This document shows, in pieces, positions 39,450 to 64,000 of a stretch of DNA of 64,000 bases. The DNA is from Wenyingzhuangia sp. 2_MG-2023 (GTDB lineage Bacteria > Bacteroidota > Bacteroidia > Flavobacteriales > Flavobacteriaceae). Position 1 is the stretch's first letter; each line of letters starts with the position of its first letter. Under the pieces are notes generated by a model that did not search any database, was not told the origin of the DNA, and worked only from the letters and a program-made list of their open reading frames with translations. Position numbers and translations under genes: made by a program. The DNA lies in assembly GCF_030548295.1 (NCBI RefSeq), contig NZ_JAUOSB010000002.1, forward strand, positions 374,001 through 438,000, written 5' to 3'.

Positions 39450-40121
39450 ATGAATATGATAGAAAACTCTGTGGATTGTGTCATCTTTGGTTTTAAAGAT
39501 GAAAGTTTAAAAGTGTTGTTAATTAAAAGAAAAAACGATCCTCAGAAAGGATTGATGGCTTTGCCTGGAGATTTTTTAGATGCTAATGTTAGTATTTATG
39601 ACAGCGCTAGAAACACATTAAAAAAAATTACCAACCTAGAAGATATTTATCTTGAACAGATCAGGGCTTTTGGAGAAACGGATAGATACCCTGGAAAAAG
39701 AGTCATTACCATTAGCTACTTTGCGCTTATCAATATTGAAAAATATTCTCCGCAAGCAGGATATACTGCCGAGAAATTAGAATGGTGTGATATAGATAAA
39801 TTACCTGAATTGGCTTTTGATCATCATAAAATTATTCAGTCTGCTCATAGAAGACTCAAACAAAGAGTAAGACACGAGCCGGTTGGCTTCAACTTACTTC
39901 CTAATGAATTTAGTTTGACAAATTTGCAACATGTTTACGAAACAATTTTACAAGTAGAATTGAATAAACGTAACTTTAGAACAAAAATCAATCAAATGAA
40001 ATTGTTGATTGATACAGGAAAAAAACAAGAAAATGTAGCGCACAAACCTGCTATCTTATATCGTTTTGACGAAGATGTTTATCAGAAACTAAAAGAAGAT
40101 GGATTTTATTTCAAACTCTAA
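39450..40121 (+). CDS. NrtR-like Nudix-domain transcriptional regulator, probable xylose regulator
   Basis: A 223-residue protein with an N-terminal Nudix fold (residues 5-140, VDCVIFGFKDESLKVLLIKR, then LPGDFLDANVSIYD) and a C-terminal winged-helix domain (about 145-223, PVGFNLLPNEFSLTNLQHVY, RNFRTKINQMKLL). The Nudix box is degenerate: the REUXEE residues are absent, so it should bind ligand but not hydrolyse. This is the NrtR-type architecture used by sugar regulators in Bacteroidota, such as the arabinose regulator. Divergence from xylB supports a xylose role. Confidence 0.82.
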   Translation: MNMIENSVDCVIFGFKDESLKVLLIKRKNDPQKGLMALPGDFLDANVSIYDSARNTLKKITNLEDIYLEQIRAFGETDRYPGKRVITISYFALINIEKYSPQAGYTAEKLEWCDIDKLPELAFDHHKIIQSAHRRLKQRVRHEPVGFNLLPNEFSLTNLQHVYETILQVELNKRNFRTKINQMKLLIDTGKKQENVAHKPAILYRFDEDVYQKLKEDGFYFKL

Positions 40122-42565: not shown

Positions 42566-42979
42566 TTAATGAGGTAGCTTCTCTTTAAAAACACCATACA
42601 CATAGGTTCCAAATATTGCAAAAGCAATTACTATTAGCAAACTAAAAAAACCTGCTCCTACAAGTGTAAACATAGGACCTGGACACGCTCCTGCCAATGC
42701 CCAACCCAGTCCAAAAATCAAACCTCCAAACAAATACCTTTTAAAACTTTTAGCTTTGTCGTCTATTTTAATAGGAAATCCATAAAAACTTTTGATGTTG
42801 AACTTTTTAATCAATTGGGTAGTTATCAAGCCTAATACAACAGCTACACCAATAATTCCGTACATATGAAAAGCTTGAAAATTAAACATTTCATAAATTC
42901 TAAACCAAGAAGCTGCTTCAGATTTGTACATGGTAATTCCAAACAAAATCCCGATACTTAAATATATTATTTTTTTCAT
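42566..42979 (-). CDS. YeeE/YedE-type sulfur transport protein, second half (DUF6691-like)
   Basis: A 137-residue membrane protein with about four helices. The motif WALAGACPGPMFTLVG is the conserved cysteine motif of the second half of YeeE/YedE transporters. It follows the other YeeE/YedE gene after nine bases; together they form a split version of the transporter that moves thiosulfate or another reduced sulfur compound. The start is the ATG at 42979. Confidence 0.85.
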   Translation of the reverse strand: MKKIIYLSIGILFGITMYKSEAASWFRIYEMFNFQAFHMYGIIGVAVVLGLITTQLIKKFNIKSFYGFPIKIDDKAKSFKRYLFGGLIFGLGWALAGACPGPMFTLVGAGFFSLLIVIAFAIFGTYVYGVFKEKLPH

Positions 42980-42988
42980 GTTATTAAT

Positions 42989-43540
42989 TTAAAAAATGAT
43001 AGGAAATAAAAAATGAATCATAAACAAACCTCCTGCAAAAAAACCAATCACAGCTATTAAAGAAGGTAGTTGTAAATTGCTCAATCCTGAAATAGCATGT
43101 CCTGAGGTACAACCTCCTGCATAACGAGTACCAAAGCCAACTAAAAACCCACCAATAGCCAACAACAATAAGTTTTTAATGCTAAAATCCCAAAAAATCT
43201 CAGTTGGTAAATAAGAGGTTGCAGAACTTGTAATTCCATAATCTTTCAAACTCAAAACAGTCTCACTACTGATATCTACTCCCGAATTTGAAGACAAGAA
43301 ATAAGCTCCTATAAAACCACCTATTACCGCTCCAATCATCACCAATAAATTCCATTTTTGACTTTTCCAATCAAACTGAAAGAAATCCGTTTTTTTTCCT
43401 GCACCACATATAGTACACAACGTTCTTAAATTGGACGACATTCCAAAACTATCTCCCATCATCAACAACAAAAACATTACCAATGCTATTAAAAACCCGG
43501 AAACGTACCAAGGCCACGGAGCTAAAATTAAATCCATCAT
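42989..43540 (-). CDS. YeeE/YedE-type sulfur transport protein, first half
   Basis: A 183-residue membrane protein with about five helices. The motif GFGTRYAGGCTSGHAISGLSN is the first-half cysteine motif of the YeeE/YedE family, and an additional Cys pair (LRTLCTICGAGKKTDF) lies near residue 38. It is the first gene of the pair and has a divergent promoter with an FNR-like palindrome. The start is the ATG at 43540; ATG 43537 would be equally possible. Confidence 0.88.
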   Translation of the reverse strand: MMDLILAPWPWYVSGFLIALVMFLLLMMGDSFGMSSNLRTLCTICGAGKKTDFFQFDWKSQKWNLLVMIGAVIGGFIGAYFLSSNSGVDISSETVLSLKDYGITSSATSYLPTEIFWDFSIKNLLLLAIGGFLVGFGTRYAGGCTSGHAISGLSNLQLPSLIAVIGFFAGGLFMIHFLFPIIF

Positions 43541-43559: not shown

Positions 43560-43632
43560 CAAAGATATTTTTTAACGACAAAGACGGCAGTAACAATTGT
43601 TACATTGATCCTTTTTATTTATGCTATTTTTG
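43560..43632. promoter_or_regulatory. Divergent promoter region with a Crp/Fnr-like palindrome
   Basis: Minus strand: TATCTTTG -7 at 43560-43567 for the YeeE/YedE pair. Plus strand: TATTTTTG -7 at 43625-43632 for the sterol-desaturase-type gene, four bases before its ATG. The 14-bp perfect palindrome GTAACAATTGTTAC (43590-43603) lies between them, centred 36.5 bases from the minus -7 and 35.5 from the plus -7. Confidence 0.65.
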
Positions 43633-43636
43633 AAAT

Positions 43637-44503
43637 ATGATTGTATTTGAAGATGTTTTTATGGGTGGAATTTACAATACACTTAACTGGGTATGGAGCT
43701 TAATTACGTTCCAATCTGCTTGGTATCACAATTATTTCTGGGGATTGATTCTTATTTCTTTAATTGTCTGGGGATTAGAAATTTTATTCCCTTGGCGTAA
43801 ACAACAAGGCATTTTTAGAAAAGACTTTTGGCTGGATGGTTTTTACATGTTTTTCAACTTCTTCTTATTCACCATTTTTATTAGTGGAATTTATGCTTTG
43901 TTCTCAAACCTCATCAATTTTCTAGGTTTTAACATCACTGACTTTGCTGTTTTAAACATTCAAAAACTAAATCCTGCAACTCAATTACTGGTATTTTTTG
44001 TCATCAGTGATTTTTTTCAGTGGTTTACGCATGTGCTTTTACATCGATATGATTTTTTCTGGAAGTTTCATCAAATTCATCACAGCGTAAAAGAAATGGG
44101 TTTTGCAGCACATTTGCGCTATCATTGGATGGAAAACATTTTATACAAACCATTAAAGACATTCGCTATTATGCTATTGGGAGGTTTTGAACCCGAACAA
44201 GCATACATTGTTCATTTTATTGCTATCTGTATTGGACACTTGAATCATTCCAACTTAAACATTACTTGGGGACCTTTAAAATATGTATTTAACAATCCTG
44301 TAATGCATTTGTATCATCATGCATATAACTTGCCTAAAAACAAAAAATATGGTGTCAATTTTGGAATCAGTCTTAGCCTTTGGGATTATATTTTTAGAAC
44401 ATATTACATTCCCAAAGTAGATGAAAATACAAAACTTGGTTTTAAAGGAGATGAAAACATTCCTACTTCATTTTGGAAGCAATTGTGGGTAGGGTTTAGA
44501 TAA
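43637..44503 (+). CDS. Sterol desaturase / fatty acid hydroxylase family protein
   Basis: A 288-residue membrane di-iron enzyme with hydrophobic helices and the His boxes HVLLHR, HQIHH, HLNHS and HLYHHAY. Family members hydroxylate or desaturate lipids, sterols or carotenoids with O2 and electrons. The substrate is not predictable. The ATG lies four bases after the -7 element, so the transcript should be leaderless. It is divergent from the YeeE/YedE genes with which it may share the palindrome. Confidence 0.87.
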   Translation: MIVFEDVFMGGIYNTLNWVWSLITFQSAWYHNYFWGLILISLIVWGLEILFPWRKQQGIFRKDFWLDGFYMFFNFFLFTIFISGIYALFSNLINFLGFNITDFAVLNIQKLNPATQLLVFFVISDFFQWFTHVLLHRYDFFWKFHQIHHSVKEMGFAAHLRYHWMENILYKPLKTFAIMLLGGFEPEQAYIVHFIAICIGHLNHSNLNITWGPLKYVFNNPVMHLYHHAYNLPKNKKYGVNFGISLSLWDYIFRTYYIPKVDENTKLGFKGDENIPTSFWKQLWVGFR

Positions 44504-60482: not shown

Positions 60483-60508
60483 AAAAAAAGATGCCTAAGC
60501 ATCTTTTT
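60483..60508 (-). terminator. Terminator of the rhodanese gene
   Basis: AAAAAGATGC (60485-60494) pairs with GCATCTTTTT (60499-60508) around a four-base loop; on the minus strand a seven-T run follows. It overlaps the stop codon region of the rhodanese gene. Confidence 0.85.
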
Positions 60509-60896
60509 AATTCTTATGAGTCTTTTCCCATTCTTGATAACCTCCTTTTAAATCCCAAATACTTACAAATCCTTTTTTTTGTAGAATTCTCAAAGCCATC
60601 AGACTTCTTTTTCCAGACCTACAATAAACATACAAGGGCTTTGTTTTATCTAAAGCTTCTATTTGTTGTTTAAAAGTTATATTAGACAAGACATCCATAT
60701 TAATAGCACTGGCAATATGTCCGTTTTTATACTCTTGATCTGTTCTCACATCTAAAACTTGAACTCCATCCTTTGCTATTGCTTTCTGAAATTCTTCTAC
60801 ATTTAACCTATTAAATTTTACCTGGGCATTTAATCTGTAAAAATAGCTCAATCCCCAAACAACGGCTATAACAATAAAAACAACTCTCATTCTCAA
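60507..60896 (-). CDS. Membrane-anchored single-domain rhodanese
   Basis: A 129-residue protein with an N-terminal membrane anchor or signal (VVFIVIAVVWGLSYFYRL) and one rhodanese domain. The active-site loop is CRSGKRS in PLYVYCRSGKRSLMALRIL, so the catalytic Cys is present. It moves sulfane sulfur, probably in the periplasm. It is 14 bases downstream of the CstB-like gene and likely in the same operon. Confidence 0.9.
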   Translation of the reverse strand: MRMRVVFIVIAVVWGLSYFYRLNAQVKFNRLNVEEFQKAIAKDGVQVLDVRTDQEYKNGHIASAINMDVLSNITFKQQIEALDKTKPLYVYCRSGKRSLMALRILQKKGFVSIWDLKGGYQEWEKTHKN

Positions 60897-60910: not shown

Positions 60911-62320
60911 TTACGATAATGTTGAAGGACACACATAAGCTGTTGTGGAAATATCCGATTCCTTAATAGCTGCAAAACCTCCCATAATATCTACAAAATT
61001 ATGAATACCTCTACTTTTTAAAATAGAAGCAGCAATCATACTTCTGTAACCACCTGCACAATGAATGTAAAAATTCTCTTTTTCTGGAAAATCTTCTAAA
61101 TGACTATTCAATACATCTAGAGGAGTATTTTTTGCTTGTGGAATTCTTTCCGACAAAAATTCTGTATGTTTTCTTACATCAAAAATAGGCAAATTATCCG
61201 TTAAAACATCTTCTAAATCAGTTGCTAAAATCTGTTGAACTGTGTCGTATTCTTTTCCAGCCTGAATCCAAGACTCAAAACCACCTTTTAAATATCCTAA
61301 AGTGTGATCAAAACCAACACGGGACAAACGTGTTATTGTTTCCTCTTCTCTTCCCTCTGGAATAACCAATACAATAGGCTGTTCTACATCACCAATCAAT
61401 GCACCTACCCAAGGAGCAAAACCTCCATCAATTCCTATAAAAATAGATTGAGGAATGTGTCCAGTTGCAAACTCTTCTTGCGTTCTAACATCCAGCACCA
61501 AAGCACCTGTCTCGTTTGCCAAATTCTCTAATTCTTGAGGCGTTAATTCATGCGTACCTTGTGCTATTACTTCACTAATATCTTCATAACCTTCCTTATT
61601 CATTTTCACGTTCAAAGGAAAATACTGTGGCGGTGGCAACAAACCGTCTGTCACTTCTTTTACAAACTCAGCCTCTGTCATATCTGCTCGTAAAGCATAA
61701 TTATTTTCTTTCTGCCCTCCTAAAGTACCTGTTGTTTCTTTACTCAAGTTCTTACCACAAGCAGATCCTGCTCCATGACCTGGGTATACAATCAACTCAT
61801 TTTCTAAAGGCATTATTTTAGTTCTCAAACTATGGAACAATGTTGCTGCCAATTGCTCTTGTGTCATGCTTGCAGCTTTCTGAGCCAAATCTGGCCTACC
61901 TACATCTCCTAAAAACAACGTATCTCCTGTAAATAATGCGTAATTTTTACCTTCTTCATCTTTCAACAAATATGTAGTAGACTCCATAGTATGTCCTGGA
62001 GTGTGGATTGCAACAATGGTTAATTTCCCCAAAGAAAACTCTTGTCCATCTTCTGTTATAATAGCCTCAAAACTAGGGTTGGCATTTTTACCGTATACAA
62101 TAGGAGCACCAGTTCTTTTAGATAAAGTAACGTGACCACTCACAAAATCTGCATGAAAATGTGTTTCTAAAATATATTTGATTTTTGCATTGTCTTTATC
62201 AGCACGATCTATATATGGCTGCACTTCTCTTAAAGGATCAATAATGGCTACTTCTCCTTCGCTTTCAATATAATAGGCTCCTTGAGCCAAACATCCTGTA
62301 TATATTTGTTCTATTTTCAT
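60911..62320 (-). CDS. CstB-like persulfide dioxygenase fused to two rhodanese domains
   Basis: A 469-residue enzyme. A metallo-beta-lactamase-fold persulfide dioxygenase domain (residues 1-235) has THFHADFVSGH, HTPGHT, FTGDTLF and YPGHGAG; the usual sixth-ligand His of the HXHXDH motif is Phe, as expected for a mononuclear iron site. A first rhodanese domain (about 255-350) lacks the catalytic Cys (LVIPEGREEE), and the second (about 365-455) has CAGGYRS. This is the arrangement of CstB, a persulfide transferase-dioxygenase that makes thiosulfate. It has an FNR-like promoter. Confidence 0.9.
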   Translation of the reverse strand: MKIEQIYTGCLAQGAYYIESEGEVAIIDPLREVQPYIDRADKDNAKIKYILETHFHADFVSGHVTLSKRTGAPIVYGKNANPSFEAIITEDGQEFSLGKLTIVAIHTPGHTMESTTYLLKDEEGKNYALFTGDTLFLGDVGRPDLAQKAASMTQEQLAATLFHSLRTKIMPLENELIVYPGHGAGSACGKNLSKETTGTLGGQKENNYALRADMTEAEFVKEVTDGLLPPPQYFPLNVKMNKEGYEDISEVIAQGTHELTPQELENLANETGALVLDVRTQEEFATGHIPQSIFIGIDGGFAPWVGALIGDVEQPIVLVIPEGREEETITRLSRVGFDHTLGYLKGGFESWIQAGKEYDTVQQILATDLEDVLTDNLPIFDVRKHTEFLSERIPQAKNTPLDVLNSHLEDFPEKENFYIHCAGGYRSMIAASILKSRGIHNFVDIMGGFAAIKESDISTTAYVCPSTLS

Positions 62321-62340: not shown

Positions 62341-62384
62341 CAAAAATAAGTGGTTTCTATTTCTCTTACAGTAACATACGTTAC
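62341..62384 (-). promoter_or_regulatory. Promoter of the CstB-like gene with an FNR-like palindrome
   Basis: On the minus strand a TATTTTTG -7 element (62341-62348) and the inverted repeat GTAACATACGTTAC (62371-62384) centred at 62377.5, which is 36.5 bases from the last G of the -7. The palindrome overlaps the stop codon of the SulP gene. The -7 is 21 bases before the ATG. Confidence 0.65.
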
Positions 62385-64000
62385 ACAGTTGTTGAATTTT
62401 GTTGACAAATTTTATTTTGTAAATCATCCTTACACACAATTCCATCAAAACAATCTACGGCTTCATAGGTTCTCACAAACAAATTTTCTTTTCCTAAAAC
62501 ATCTACAATTCCATTCTGAAACAGCACATCTCTAGTAGGACCAATTGCTCCTGTAATAAAAAATTTAATGTTTTGTGATTTTAATTGCTCTATATACGAT
62601 ATCAACATTGCATTGGCACTACTGTCTATATAACTAATAGATTCTGCATTTAAAATTACTGCTTTTAAAGTCTTGATTTTATGTTGAACCAATGCTTCTA
62701 ATTTATTCTTAAAATAATCTTTATTTCCAAAAAACAACTGAGCATCAAATCGTACGATGAGCACATCATTTCGCTCTTGGATCTCACCACTAAATCTTGA
62801 TATATTTTTAAAATAATTACTTTCTTCTATTCTAGCCAATACTGCAATGTGTGGCTGAGATGTTCTGTATACCATTAAAATTAAAGAAACTACAATTCCT
62901 ACCAATATACCATGAATGATACCTACAAAAAGTGTGATGATAAATGTAACACACAACAAAAAAAACTCATCTCTATTTTGTTTCCACAATTGCACGGGAA
63001 ATTTAAAATCTATCAATTTATAAACGGCAACCATAATCATAGAAGCCAACACTGCTTTGGGCAAATAATAAAACAAGGGGGTTAAAAATAACAATGTTAC
63101 CCCAACAACTGCAGCACTTACCAAACTTGCAATTCCTGTTTTTGCTCCTGCCTGATGATTGACGGCACTTCTAGCAAAACCACCAGAAGTAGGATACGCT
63201 TGAAAAAAAGACCCTATCATGTTAGATGTTCCTAATGCTATCAATTCTTGATTGGCATCTACCTTATAATTCTCTACTTTTTCTTCTAAAGATTTAGAAA
63301 TAGAAATAGCCTCCATAAAAGCCACCAAAGCCAACGTAATAGCCATTGGTATCAGTTCTGCATAAGGAAGGTGTTTGAGTTCTGGTATTTTAAAACTTGG
63401 CAGTCCATCTGGAATACTTCCCACTATCTTTACCCCTAAAGATTGTAAATCCAAAAAATAAACTGCCAAGGTTCCTACTGCTACTACTACAAGTGCAGCT
63501 GGAATTTTAGGTACAAATTTTTTCAACAATACTAGAACAACAATTCCCAACAACCCCAATAAAAATGTTGTGAAATTTACTTGATCAAGTACCGTTACTA
63601 CCTGTCCTAAAATAATATGTAATTTGGAACTCCCTTTTAAAGAGACTCCCAATAAATGTTTCAACTGACTCAATCCTATTACAATTGCAGCTGCTGATGT
63701 AAATCCGCTAATTACAGGTTTGGATAAAAAATTGACCAAAAAACCCATTCTCAAAACTCCTAACATCAACTGTACCAACCCCATAAACAAAGACAATACA
63801 ATTGCCATTGCAATATAATCGTCAATACCCGAAAGGTGCAATACTCCTAAACTAGCTGCCACTAACAAAGAATCCATAGCTACAGGCCCAACTGCTAGTT
63901 GTCTAGAGGTTCCTAAAAAAGCATATACAACTTGTGGCATAAGAGCAGCATACAATCCATACACAGGTGGCAATCCAGCAATTAATGCATACGCCATTCC
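62381..64000 (-). CDS. SulP-family anion transporter (partial, 5' end outside window)
   Basis: At least 539 residues, running off the window. The visible start GMAYALIAGLPPVYGLYAAL is the internal SulP signature that normally follows PQ, so about 50 N-terminal residues are missing. Hydrophobic helices lead to a C-terminal STAS domain (about residues 410-520, ILNAESISYIDSSANAMLIS). SulP proteins move sulfate, bicarbonate or other anions. It is 60 bases upstream of the CstB-like gene, so sulfate or a sulfur anion is the likely substrate. Confidence 0.93.
   Translation of the reverse strand, partial: GMAYALIAGLPPVYGLYAALMPQVVYAFLGTSRQLAVGPVAMDSLLVAASLGVLHLSGIDDYIAMAIVLSLFMGLVQLMLGVLRMGFLVNFLSKPVISGFTSAAAIVIGLSQLKHLLGVSLKGSSKLHIILGQVVTVLDQVNFTTFLLGLLGIVVLVLLKKFVPKIPAALVVVAVGTLAVYFLDLQSLGVKIVGSIPDGLPSFKIPELKHLPYAELIPMAITLALVAFMEAISISKSLEEKVENYKVDANQELIALGTSNMIGSFFQAYPTSGGFARSAVNHQAGAKTGIASLVSAAVVGVTLLFLTPLFYYLPKAVLASMIMVAVYKLIDFKFPVQLWKQNRDEFFLLCVTFIITLFVGIIHGILVGIVVSLILMVYRTSQPHIAVLARIEESNYFKNISRFSGEIQERNDVLIVRFDAQLFFGNKDYFKNKLEALVQHKIKTLKAVILNAESISYIDSSANAMLISYIEQLKSQNIKFFITGAIGPTRDVLFQNGIVDVLGKENLFVRTYEAVDCFDGIVCKDDLQNKICQQNSTTV

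Follow-up and report, generated by a model that had tools for sequence, protein, structure and literature searches.

In the sea, flavobacteria are abundant and degrade sulfated polysaccharides; particles and sediments expose them to sulfide. Persulfide-sensing repressors are CstR (CsoR family) and SqrR/BigR (ArsR family), and FisR is an activator. Among the Crp/Fnr proteins, cyanobacterial NtcA senses 2-oxoglutarate, controls nitrogen genes and binds a GTAN8TAC site at the class II position; for an activator, this position corresponds to a centre at -41.5. The palindrome GTAACnnnnGTTAC is given as the HcpR2 motif, Bacteroides included, in the available part of PMC1274295, and the available part of PMC13370916, which covers HcpR, does not mention GTAAC. 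Thus, the operator word considered here is already known from HcpR2. A search of open-licence papers found no regulator of flavobacterial sulfide or persulfide genes and no account of the regulator and regulon proposed below.

The analysed window comprises 64,000 nucleotides (C110:374001-438000) of the 4.0 Mb draft genome of a Wenyingzhuangia strain. Two promoters of this window carry the palindrome at an identical distance from a TAnnTTTG box. Upstream of the cstB-like gene, the palindromic operator GTAACATACGTTAC occupies positions 62371..62384 and overlaps the sulP stop codon TAA (62381-62383); the putative -7 box TATTTTTG (62341..62348, minus strand), which would span -12 to -5, lies 22 nt away. 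Read on the minus strand, this promoter is GTAACGTATGTTAC-N22-TATTTTTG, and the ATG follows 20 nt downstream of the box. The promoter of pmpA (YeeE) is GTAACAATTGTTAC-N22-TATCTTTG, with the operator at 43590..43603, between pmpA and a divergent fatty-acid-hydroxylase gene, the box at 43560..43567 on the minus strand, again 22 nt from the palindrome, and the ATG 19 nt downstream of the box. The preliminary description had stated that the two palindromes differ only in their N4 centre and that the palindrome centre lies 36.5 bases from the last G of the box. Re-reading of the sequence confirmed the first statement, and the distance was recovered at both sites (at cstB, for example, from the centre at 62377.5 to the last G at 62341). 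A third copy, GTAACTTTTGTTAC-N22-TTTCTTTG, precedes sulP at C110:438125-438168, that is 125-168 bases past the window end, with identical spacing and one mismatch in the box. In the following, the combination of the palindrome, exactly 22 nt and TAnnTTTG is called the composite.

The genes behind these sites have functions in sulfur handling as judged from their domains. The cstB-like gene (60911..62320, minus strand, 469 aa) matches PF00753 (metallo-beta-lactamase fold) and PF00581 (two rhodanese stretches). A metallo-beta-lactamase domain followed by rhodanese domains is the architecture of a CstB-type persulfide dioxygenase-sulfurtransferase, which the protein is therefore predicted to be. 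The single-domain rhodanese downstream of it (60507..60896, minus strand, PF00581, with an in-frame ATG at 60890) is probably encoded on the same transcript. sulP (62381..64000, minus strand, starting 108 bases past the window end at L012:2108) encodes a SulP permease of 575 aa with a STAS domain (PF00916, PF01740, TIGR00815). At the other locus, a pmpA-like gene (42989..43540, minus strand, 183 aa, PF04143) and a pmpB-like gene (42566..42979, minus strand, 137 aa, PF20398 and PF04143 positions 12-103) code for half YeeE/YedE transporters. The best PF04143 stretch of the PmpA-like protein covers profile positions 257-309, the C-terminal part of the family, and the PmpB-like protein matches the N-terminal part according to Pfam. 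Two short proteins that correspond to the C- and N-terminal YeeE halves fit the description of PmpA and PmpB in the available part of PMC11582611, where PmpA has about 130 aa and is thus shorter than the 183 aa found here.

The divergent fatty-acid-hydroxylase-family gene (43637..44503, plus strand, PF04116) is an associated neighbour, and an ORF of 285-295 aa is also divergent to pmpA at five congener loci. It was considered whether the YeeE site drives the hydroxylase gene as well. The own genome contains TATTTTTG at 21 nt in this direction, but TAnnTTTG was found at 21 or 22 nt in none of the five congeners, and the idea was rejected. A relative of the hydroxylase (65% identical) lies directly under a composite in one other genome of the family (L110). 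Furthermore, an NrtR/AraR-like Nudix-domain regulator is encoded near the pmp locus (39450-40121), outside this finding.

Mapping of start sites in Flavobacterium psychrophilum placed the TAnnTTTG box at -12 to -5 (available part of PMC9723704). Since the flavobacterial box spans these positions and the spacing is fixed, the palindrome would be centred at -41.5. With starts taken from F. psychrophilum, the sites would thus fit a class II layout, in which the centre at -41.5 is held at a fixed 22-nt spacing to the -7 box. At the 89 exact sites of the 80 loci from named genomes described below, T (81%) and G (66%) are preferred just after the palindrome, at about -34 and -33 in the F. psychrophilum numbering.

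The palindrome alone carries no signal in the own genome: it occurs at 11 places in 4.0 Mb, compared to 7 for the backward control, and was therefore dropped as evidence. At the places outside sulfur loci, genes were read at one (C178) and the flanking letters at the others. Likewise, the three palindromes with one mismatch in the window are within chance (mean 1.55; at least three in 21 of 100 shuffles). The exact composite, by contrast, occurs twice in the window, whereas about 0.006 occurrences are expected per whole genome under a simple base-composition model. If up to two mismatches are allowed, composite and backward control are equally frequent in the own genome (13 vs 13); matches of this quality are therefore usable only if gene content or congeners support them. 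Such support exists for the sites before the CoA-disulfide-reductase-like gene and before a thioredoxin of 119 aa; at the remaining two-mismatch places of the own genome, no ORF or an unlabelled ORF was found behind the site.

In order to assess conservation, seven Wenyingzhuangia genomes were searched for composites with at most one mismatch; six of them are near-complete (at least 99%) and the seventh is 85% complete. All 30 composites are located in the six near-complete genomes, in which the backward control yielded none. Conservation upstream of orthologues had been named beforehand as the point at which the proposal could fail, and the sites of pmpA, sulP and cstB are each present in all six of these genomes with at most one mismatch. 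The pmpA site is exact throughout, the sulP site is exact in the five congeners and has one mismatch in the own genome, and the cstB site is exact in five genomes and has one mismatch in another. The site of the 119-aa thioredoxin gene, whose product in the own genome matches PF00085, is also found in six of six genomes (one mismatch in five, two in the own genome). The CoA-disulfide-reductase-like gene lies under the site in three of six genomes, with two mismatches in the own genome and one in the two others; the protein of the own genome has a rhodanese domain, and its score against the CoA-disulfide reductase model does not reach the curated cut-off. Altogether, 28 of the 30 composites precede pmpA (6), sulP (6), cstB (6), the 119-aa thioredoxin gene (5), the CoA-disulfide-reductase-like gene (2) and, according to BLAST labels, the single cases of a 98-aa thioredoxin, a methyltransferase-thioredoxin pair and an outer-membrane efflux gene. 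The other two precede an unlabelled 487-aa protein and no gene, respectively. The incomplete seventh genome (G005, 2.0 Mb, 85% complete) contains no composite at this threshold and one control match. It also lacks a close orthologue of the regulator described below, the best E-value in this incomplete assembly being 5.9e-4, and a joint loss of regulator and composites is possible.

Three further observations concern thioredoxin genes. In the own genome, a one-mismatch composite (L281:2456-2499, C178:35455-35498) precedes a methyltransferase gene with a weak TehB match, which is followed by a thioredoxin gene. In a congener, an exact composite precedes the gene of the 98-aa thioredoxin, which is 56% identical to the C178 thioredoxin. 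Finally, a Thioredoxin_3-OsmC operon of the own genome (L283:1140-1200, contig C12) is preceded by GTGACAAAAGTCAC-N22-TAACTTTA, with identical spacing; GTGACAAAAGTCAC may be a variant of the operator that the regulator also uses.

The composite is widespread in Flavobacteriaceae. It was found in exact form in 202 of 299 genomes of the family, compared to 3 for the backward control. In a sample of the whole phylum it occurred in 13 of 148 genomes: 9 of 15 Flavobacteriaceae, neither of the two genomes from other families of the order, 4 of the 20 from the rest of the class and none of 111 from outside it (rows counted by eye). The specificity of the motif was assessed in 55 regulator-centred loci, namely the own locus and 54 other regions (916,179 bases). 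These contain 52 palindromes, whereas the 59 other permutations of the half-site occurred 0.86 times on average and at most 6 times, and other centre lengths of the palindrome (0 to 15) gave 0 to 2 occurrences each. Where TAnnTTTG occurs within 60 nt, it is at offset 22 in 29 of 33 cases. The 80 loci from named genomes, which share some species with the 55-locus set, gave the same picture: 181 palindromes compared to a permutation mean of 1.3 (maximum 10), the box at offset 22 in 89 of 107 cases, and at least one exact composite in 65 of the 80 loci. When 30 letter orders of the box were compared at offset 22 in these loci, TA..TTTG gave 89 hits and every other order at most one. As the composite is conserved across genus and family, it is not a product of chance, which bears out the initial judgement that a shared motif with shared spacing was unlikely to be accidental.

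To characterize the genes under the site, the first 70 composites from the family-wide search were sampled, 67 of which have a downstream ORF. BLAST labels assign 17 sites to outer-membrane efflux genes, 10 to TauE, 8 to cstB, 6 to SulP, two each to fatty-acid hydroxylase and rhodanese, and one each to YeeA, thioredoxin, an SQR-like gene and the regulator itself; 18 genes are unlabelled and three sites lack an ORF. Pfam matches of the 67 ORFs agree with these labels (OEP 17, TauE 10, Rhodanese 10, Lactamase_B 8, Sulfate_transp 6), and cytochrome c and AhpC-type genes are also found under composites. TauE, cstB, SulP, rhodanese, YeeA and the SQR-like gene together account for 28 of the 70 sites. 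The efflux genes form the largest single class (17 of 70), and for this reason the signal is perhaps broader than sulfur; the class may either be part of a sulfur response or indicate such a broader signal. At one locus (L083:2778-8475), the efflux gene under the composite is followed by HlyD-type and AcrB-type RND genes, and ORFs of L054 match those efflux ORFs in length. In an uncultured Aquimarina genome, a gene for cytochrome bd oxidase subunit I lies directly under an exact composite (L258:8796-9838); cytochrome bd resists sulfide.

Near the regulator, at least one gene of the set cstB, rhodanese, SulP, YeeA, YeeB, TauE and SQR-like is present in 71 of the 80 named loci. The 89 exact composites of these loci precede such genes in 59 cases (TauE 29, cstB 19, SulP 9, YeeA 1, SQR-like 1) and unlabelled genes in 24; this tally favours the neighbours of the regulator, because it was drawn from within 8 kb of it. 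The conserved sites support the earlier suggestion of a regulon in which genes of sulfur transport (pmpAB and sulP, joined in relatives by TauE) are linked with those of persulfide oxidation (cstB and rhodanese). It had further been suggested that the cstB-rhodanese pair can be expressed apart from SulP. The pair does have a promoter of its own; however, sulP carries a copy of the same site, so that both probably share one signal and the suggested independence does not extend to the signal.

The preliminary description had referred to a candidate Crp/Fnr gene. No PF00027 match exists in the window, and the likely gene was found 1.6 kb beyond the window end, on the minus strand at C110:439617-440240 (65617-66240 in window numbering). 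Its product of 208 aa matches PF00027, PF13545 and PF00325, all over cut-off, and thus combines a cNMP-binding-type domain with a Crp helix-turn-helix. In all six genus loci examined, this gene is separated from sulP-cstB by one gene (serB-like). Across the same 299 family genomes, with orthologues defined by an E-value of at most 1e-45, the exact composite is present in 196 of 243 genomes with the regulator and in 6 of 56 without it (odds ratio 34.8, Fisher p 4e-23, shared ancestry not being accounted for). Conversely, 47 of the 243 regulator-encoding genomes lack an exact composite, and no exact palindrome was found at 15 of the 44 loci in which the regulator has an SRVV-type helix; in some members of the family, the operator has therefore changed or disappeared.

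The recognition helix points to the same protein. The own genome contains 16 PF00027 matches, 14 of them over cut-off and the regulator included, which correspond to 15 Crp-like ORFs and one 624-residue DUF294/CBS protein in which no helix-turn-helix family was matched. The regulator is the only one of the Crp-like ORFs to have an SRxxxxR helix (SRVVISR). According to the available part of PMC1274295, Arg180 goes with G3 of the operator and a Glu181-to-Pro change goes with the GTAAC motif. The regulator keeps Arg180 and has a Val at position 181 instead of the Glu; retention of Arg180 and loss of Glu181 agree with this account. In the 55 regulator-centred loci, the palindrome is present in 29 of 44 loci with an SRVV-type helix and in one of 11 with other helices. 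It is therefore likely that the 208-aa Crp/Fnr protein is the regulator of the composite sites.

The sensory domain differs from that of cAMP-responsive CRP. In an alignment with CRP chain 4bh9_A, the segment GELGLFEEGQERSA, which we take to be the cAMP phosphate-binding cassette, corresponds to AMTMSCCTGNKKSE of the regulator, which in this alignment lacks the cassette. A Cys-x5-Cys-Cys loop (Cys77, Cys83 and Cys84) is located at this position. All 35 orthologues that were selected from the 80 named loci and aligned have the three cysteines. In a wider set of 55 proteins, Cys77 is conserved in 55, Cys83 in 41 and Cys84 in 39, and for the 30 loci with a palindrome the corresponding numbers are 30, 28 and 27. 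The AlphaFold model of the W. heitensis orthologue (mean pLDDT 81.5, pTM 0.59) matches CRP structures. The cysteine loop is its least confident part, with pLDDT values below 50 for residues 78-84, and the model therefore supports a Crp-like fold and not the distances between the cysteines. Cys77, Cys83 and Cys84 may sense reactive sulfur.

Taken together, these data suggest class II activator promoters under the control of the 208-aa Crp/Fnr regulator, which would form a reactive-sulfur regulon; to this explanation as a whole we assign a probability of roughly 0.8. Conservation supports the operator and its spacing, the set of genes and the statistical association with the regulator; we infer that the protein binds directly, that it activates and does not repress, and which signal it senses. 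In the proposed mechanism, a Crp/Fnr dimer would bind GTAACnnnnGTTAC centred at -41.5, adjoining the -33 region, and would recruit RNA polymerase to the TAnnTTTG -7 box. The regulator would sense persulfide, polysulfide or sulfide stress via Cys77, Cys83 and Cys84. Induction would then raise expression of the sulfur permease genes pmpAB, the anion permease gene sulP, cstB-rhodanese for persulfide oxidation and transfer, and thioredoxins, and probably also of the CoA-disulfide-reductase-like rhodanese flavoprotein; relatives would in addition induce TauE, an SQR-like gene, genes for cytochrome c and an efflux pump.

The class II layout also bears on the possibility that the palindrome is a repressor site or, at the end of sulP, a weak terminator acting through DNA structure. 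Such a role could be read from the cstB palindrome, which overlaps the sulP stop codon, but the sites of pmpA and sulP lie away from gene ends, and a 22-nt spacing that is kept at otherwise unrelated promoters, where the downstream half-site reaches about -35 and borders the -33 region, is the layout of class II activation; we regard this possibility as very improbable. That another Crp/Fnr protein of the genome occupies the site is improbable, too. Candidates exist, as PF00027 is matched 16 times in the genome, with 14 scores over cut-off including that of the regulator, and 6 of 56 family genomes carry an exact composite without a close orthologue of the regulator. However, the SRxxxxR helix occurs in none of the 14 other Crp-like ORFs, the remaining PF00027 protein is the one without a helix-turn-helix family match, and the presence of the composite tracks the orthologue of the 208-aa regulator. 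Least probable of all is an HcpR2-type nitrosative-stress site. The operator consensus GTAACnnnnGTTAC is identical, Bacteroides included, and HcpR2 has Pro181 with this motif (available part of PMC1274295), whereas the regulator has Val. The genes under the site are sulfur genes, and no hcp (PF03063) was found in the own genome with a profile that matched 5 of 14 control genomes. As the operator is shared and the hcp search covered the own genome, HcpR2 could be the protein that binds some of the composites in other genomes of the family.

With operator and regulator assigned in this way, the signal can be considered separately. We see an even chance that the regulon responds to reactive sulfur across the family and that the activator's Cys-x5-Cys-Cys loop, which replaces the cAMP cassette, senses persulfide directly. 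A less probable, yet conceivable, reading leaves operator and regulator unchanged and takes general thiol, soft-metal or oxidant stress, or redox state or low oxygen, as the signal, sulfur genes being only part of the output. It would account for the outer-membrane efflux genes under 17 of 70 sites (HlyD-type and AcrB-type genes following in L083, the one locus scanned) and for thioredoxin, AhpC, OsmC and one cytochrome bd gene under the site; moreover, a Cys-rich loop could be oxidised or bind metals. Against it stand the core of the genus, which consists of pmpA, sulP, cstB and thioredoxin, and the finding that 71 of 80 loci have sulfur genes close to the regulator. A sulfide or persulfide load would also be compatible with thioredoxins, cytochrome bd and CoA-disulfide reductase.

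As far as can be judged from sequence comparison, a short palindrome at a fixed promoter distance marks sulfur-handling genes in many marine flavobacteria, which are probably co-activated by a Crp/Fnr-type protein. If this is true, roughly two of every three Flavobacteriaceae genomes sampled (202 of 299) would have a reactive-sulfur regulon marked by GTAACnnnnGTTAC-N22-TAnnTTTG, an efflux pump, a fatty-acid hydroxylase, a DUF983 protein and a Tll0287-like protein, all uncharacterised, would join this regulon, and the system would offer a clear test of a Crp/Fnr cysteine sensor. If, in addition, the cysteine loop senses persulfide directly, the regulator would represent a kind of persulfide sensor outside the CsoR, ArsR and NtrC-type families.

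Compared to known systems, the regulator shares with HcpR2 (available part of PMC1274295) the operator GTAACnnnnGTTAC, the Crp/Fnr family and the loss of Glu181 from the recognition helix. HcpR2 combines Pro181 with control of hcp, whereas Val181, the absence of hcp from the own genome and sulfur genes under the site are found here. A further feature of the regulator is the Cys-x5-Cys-Cys loop, which was compared among its orthologues and with 4bh9_A and 3dv8. NtcA is related to the regulator by sequence and fold. The Eubacterium rectale Crp/Fnr protein 3dv8 is the first PDB match by E-value in both sequence and fold (TM-score only 0.56) and contains, in the aligned segment, cysteines that match Cys77 and Cys83. 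It is about 25% identical, has SHREVITR where the regulator has SRVVISR, and its title gives no function. With CstR, SqrR/BigR and FisR, the proposed system would have in common overlapping outputs, namely persulfide oxidation, rhodaneses, SQR, TauE and PmpAB-like permeases, and the proposed sensing by cysteines. It differs from them in that those regulators belong to other protein families, whereas here the role would fall to a member of the Crp/Fnr family acting at promoters of class II layout.
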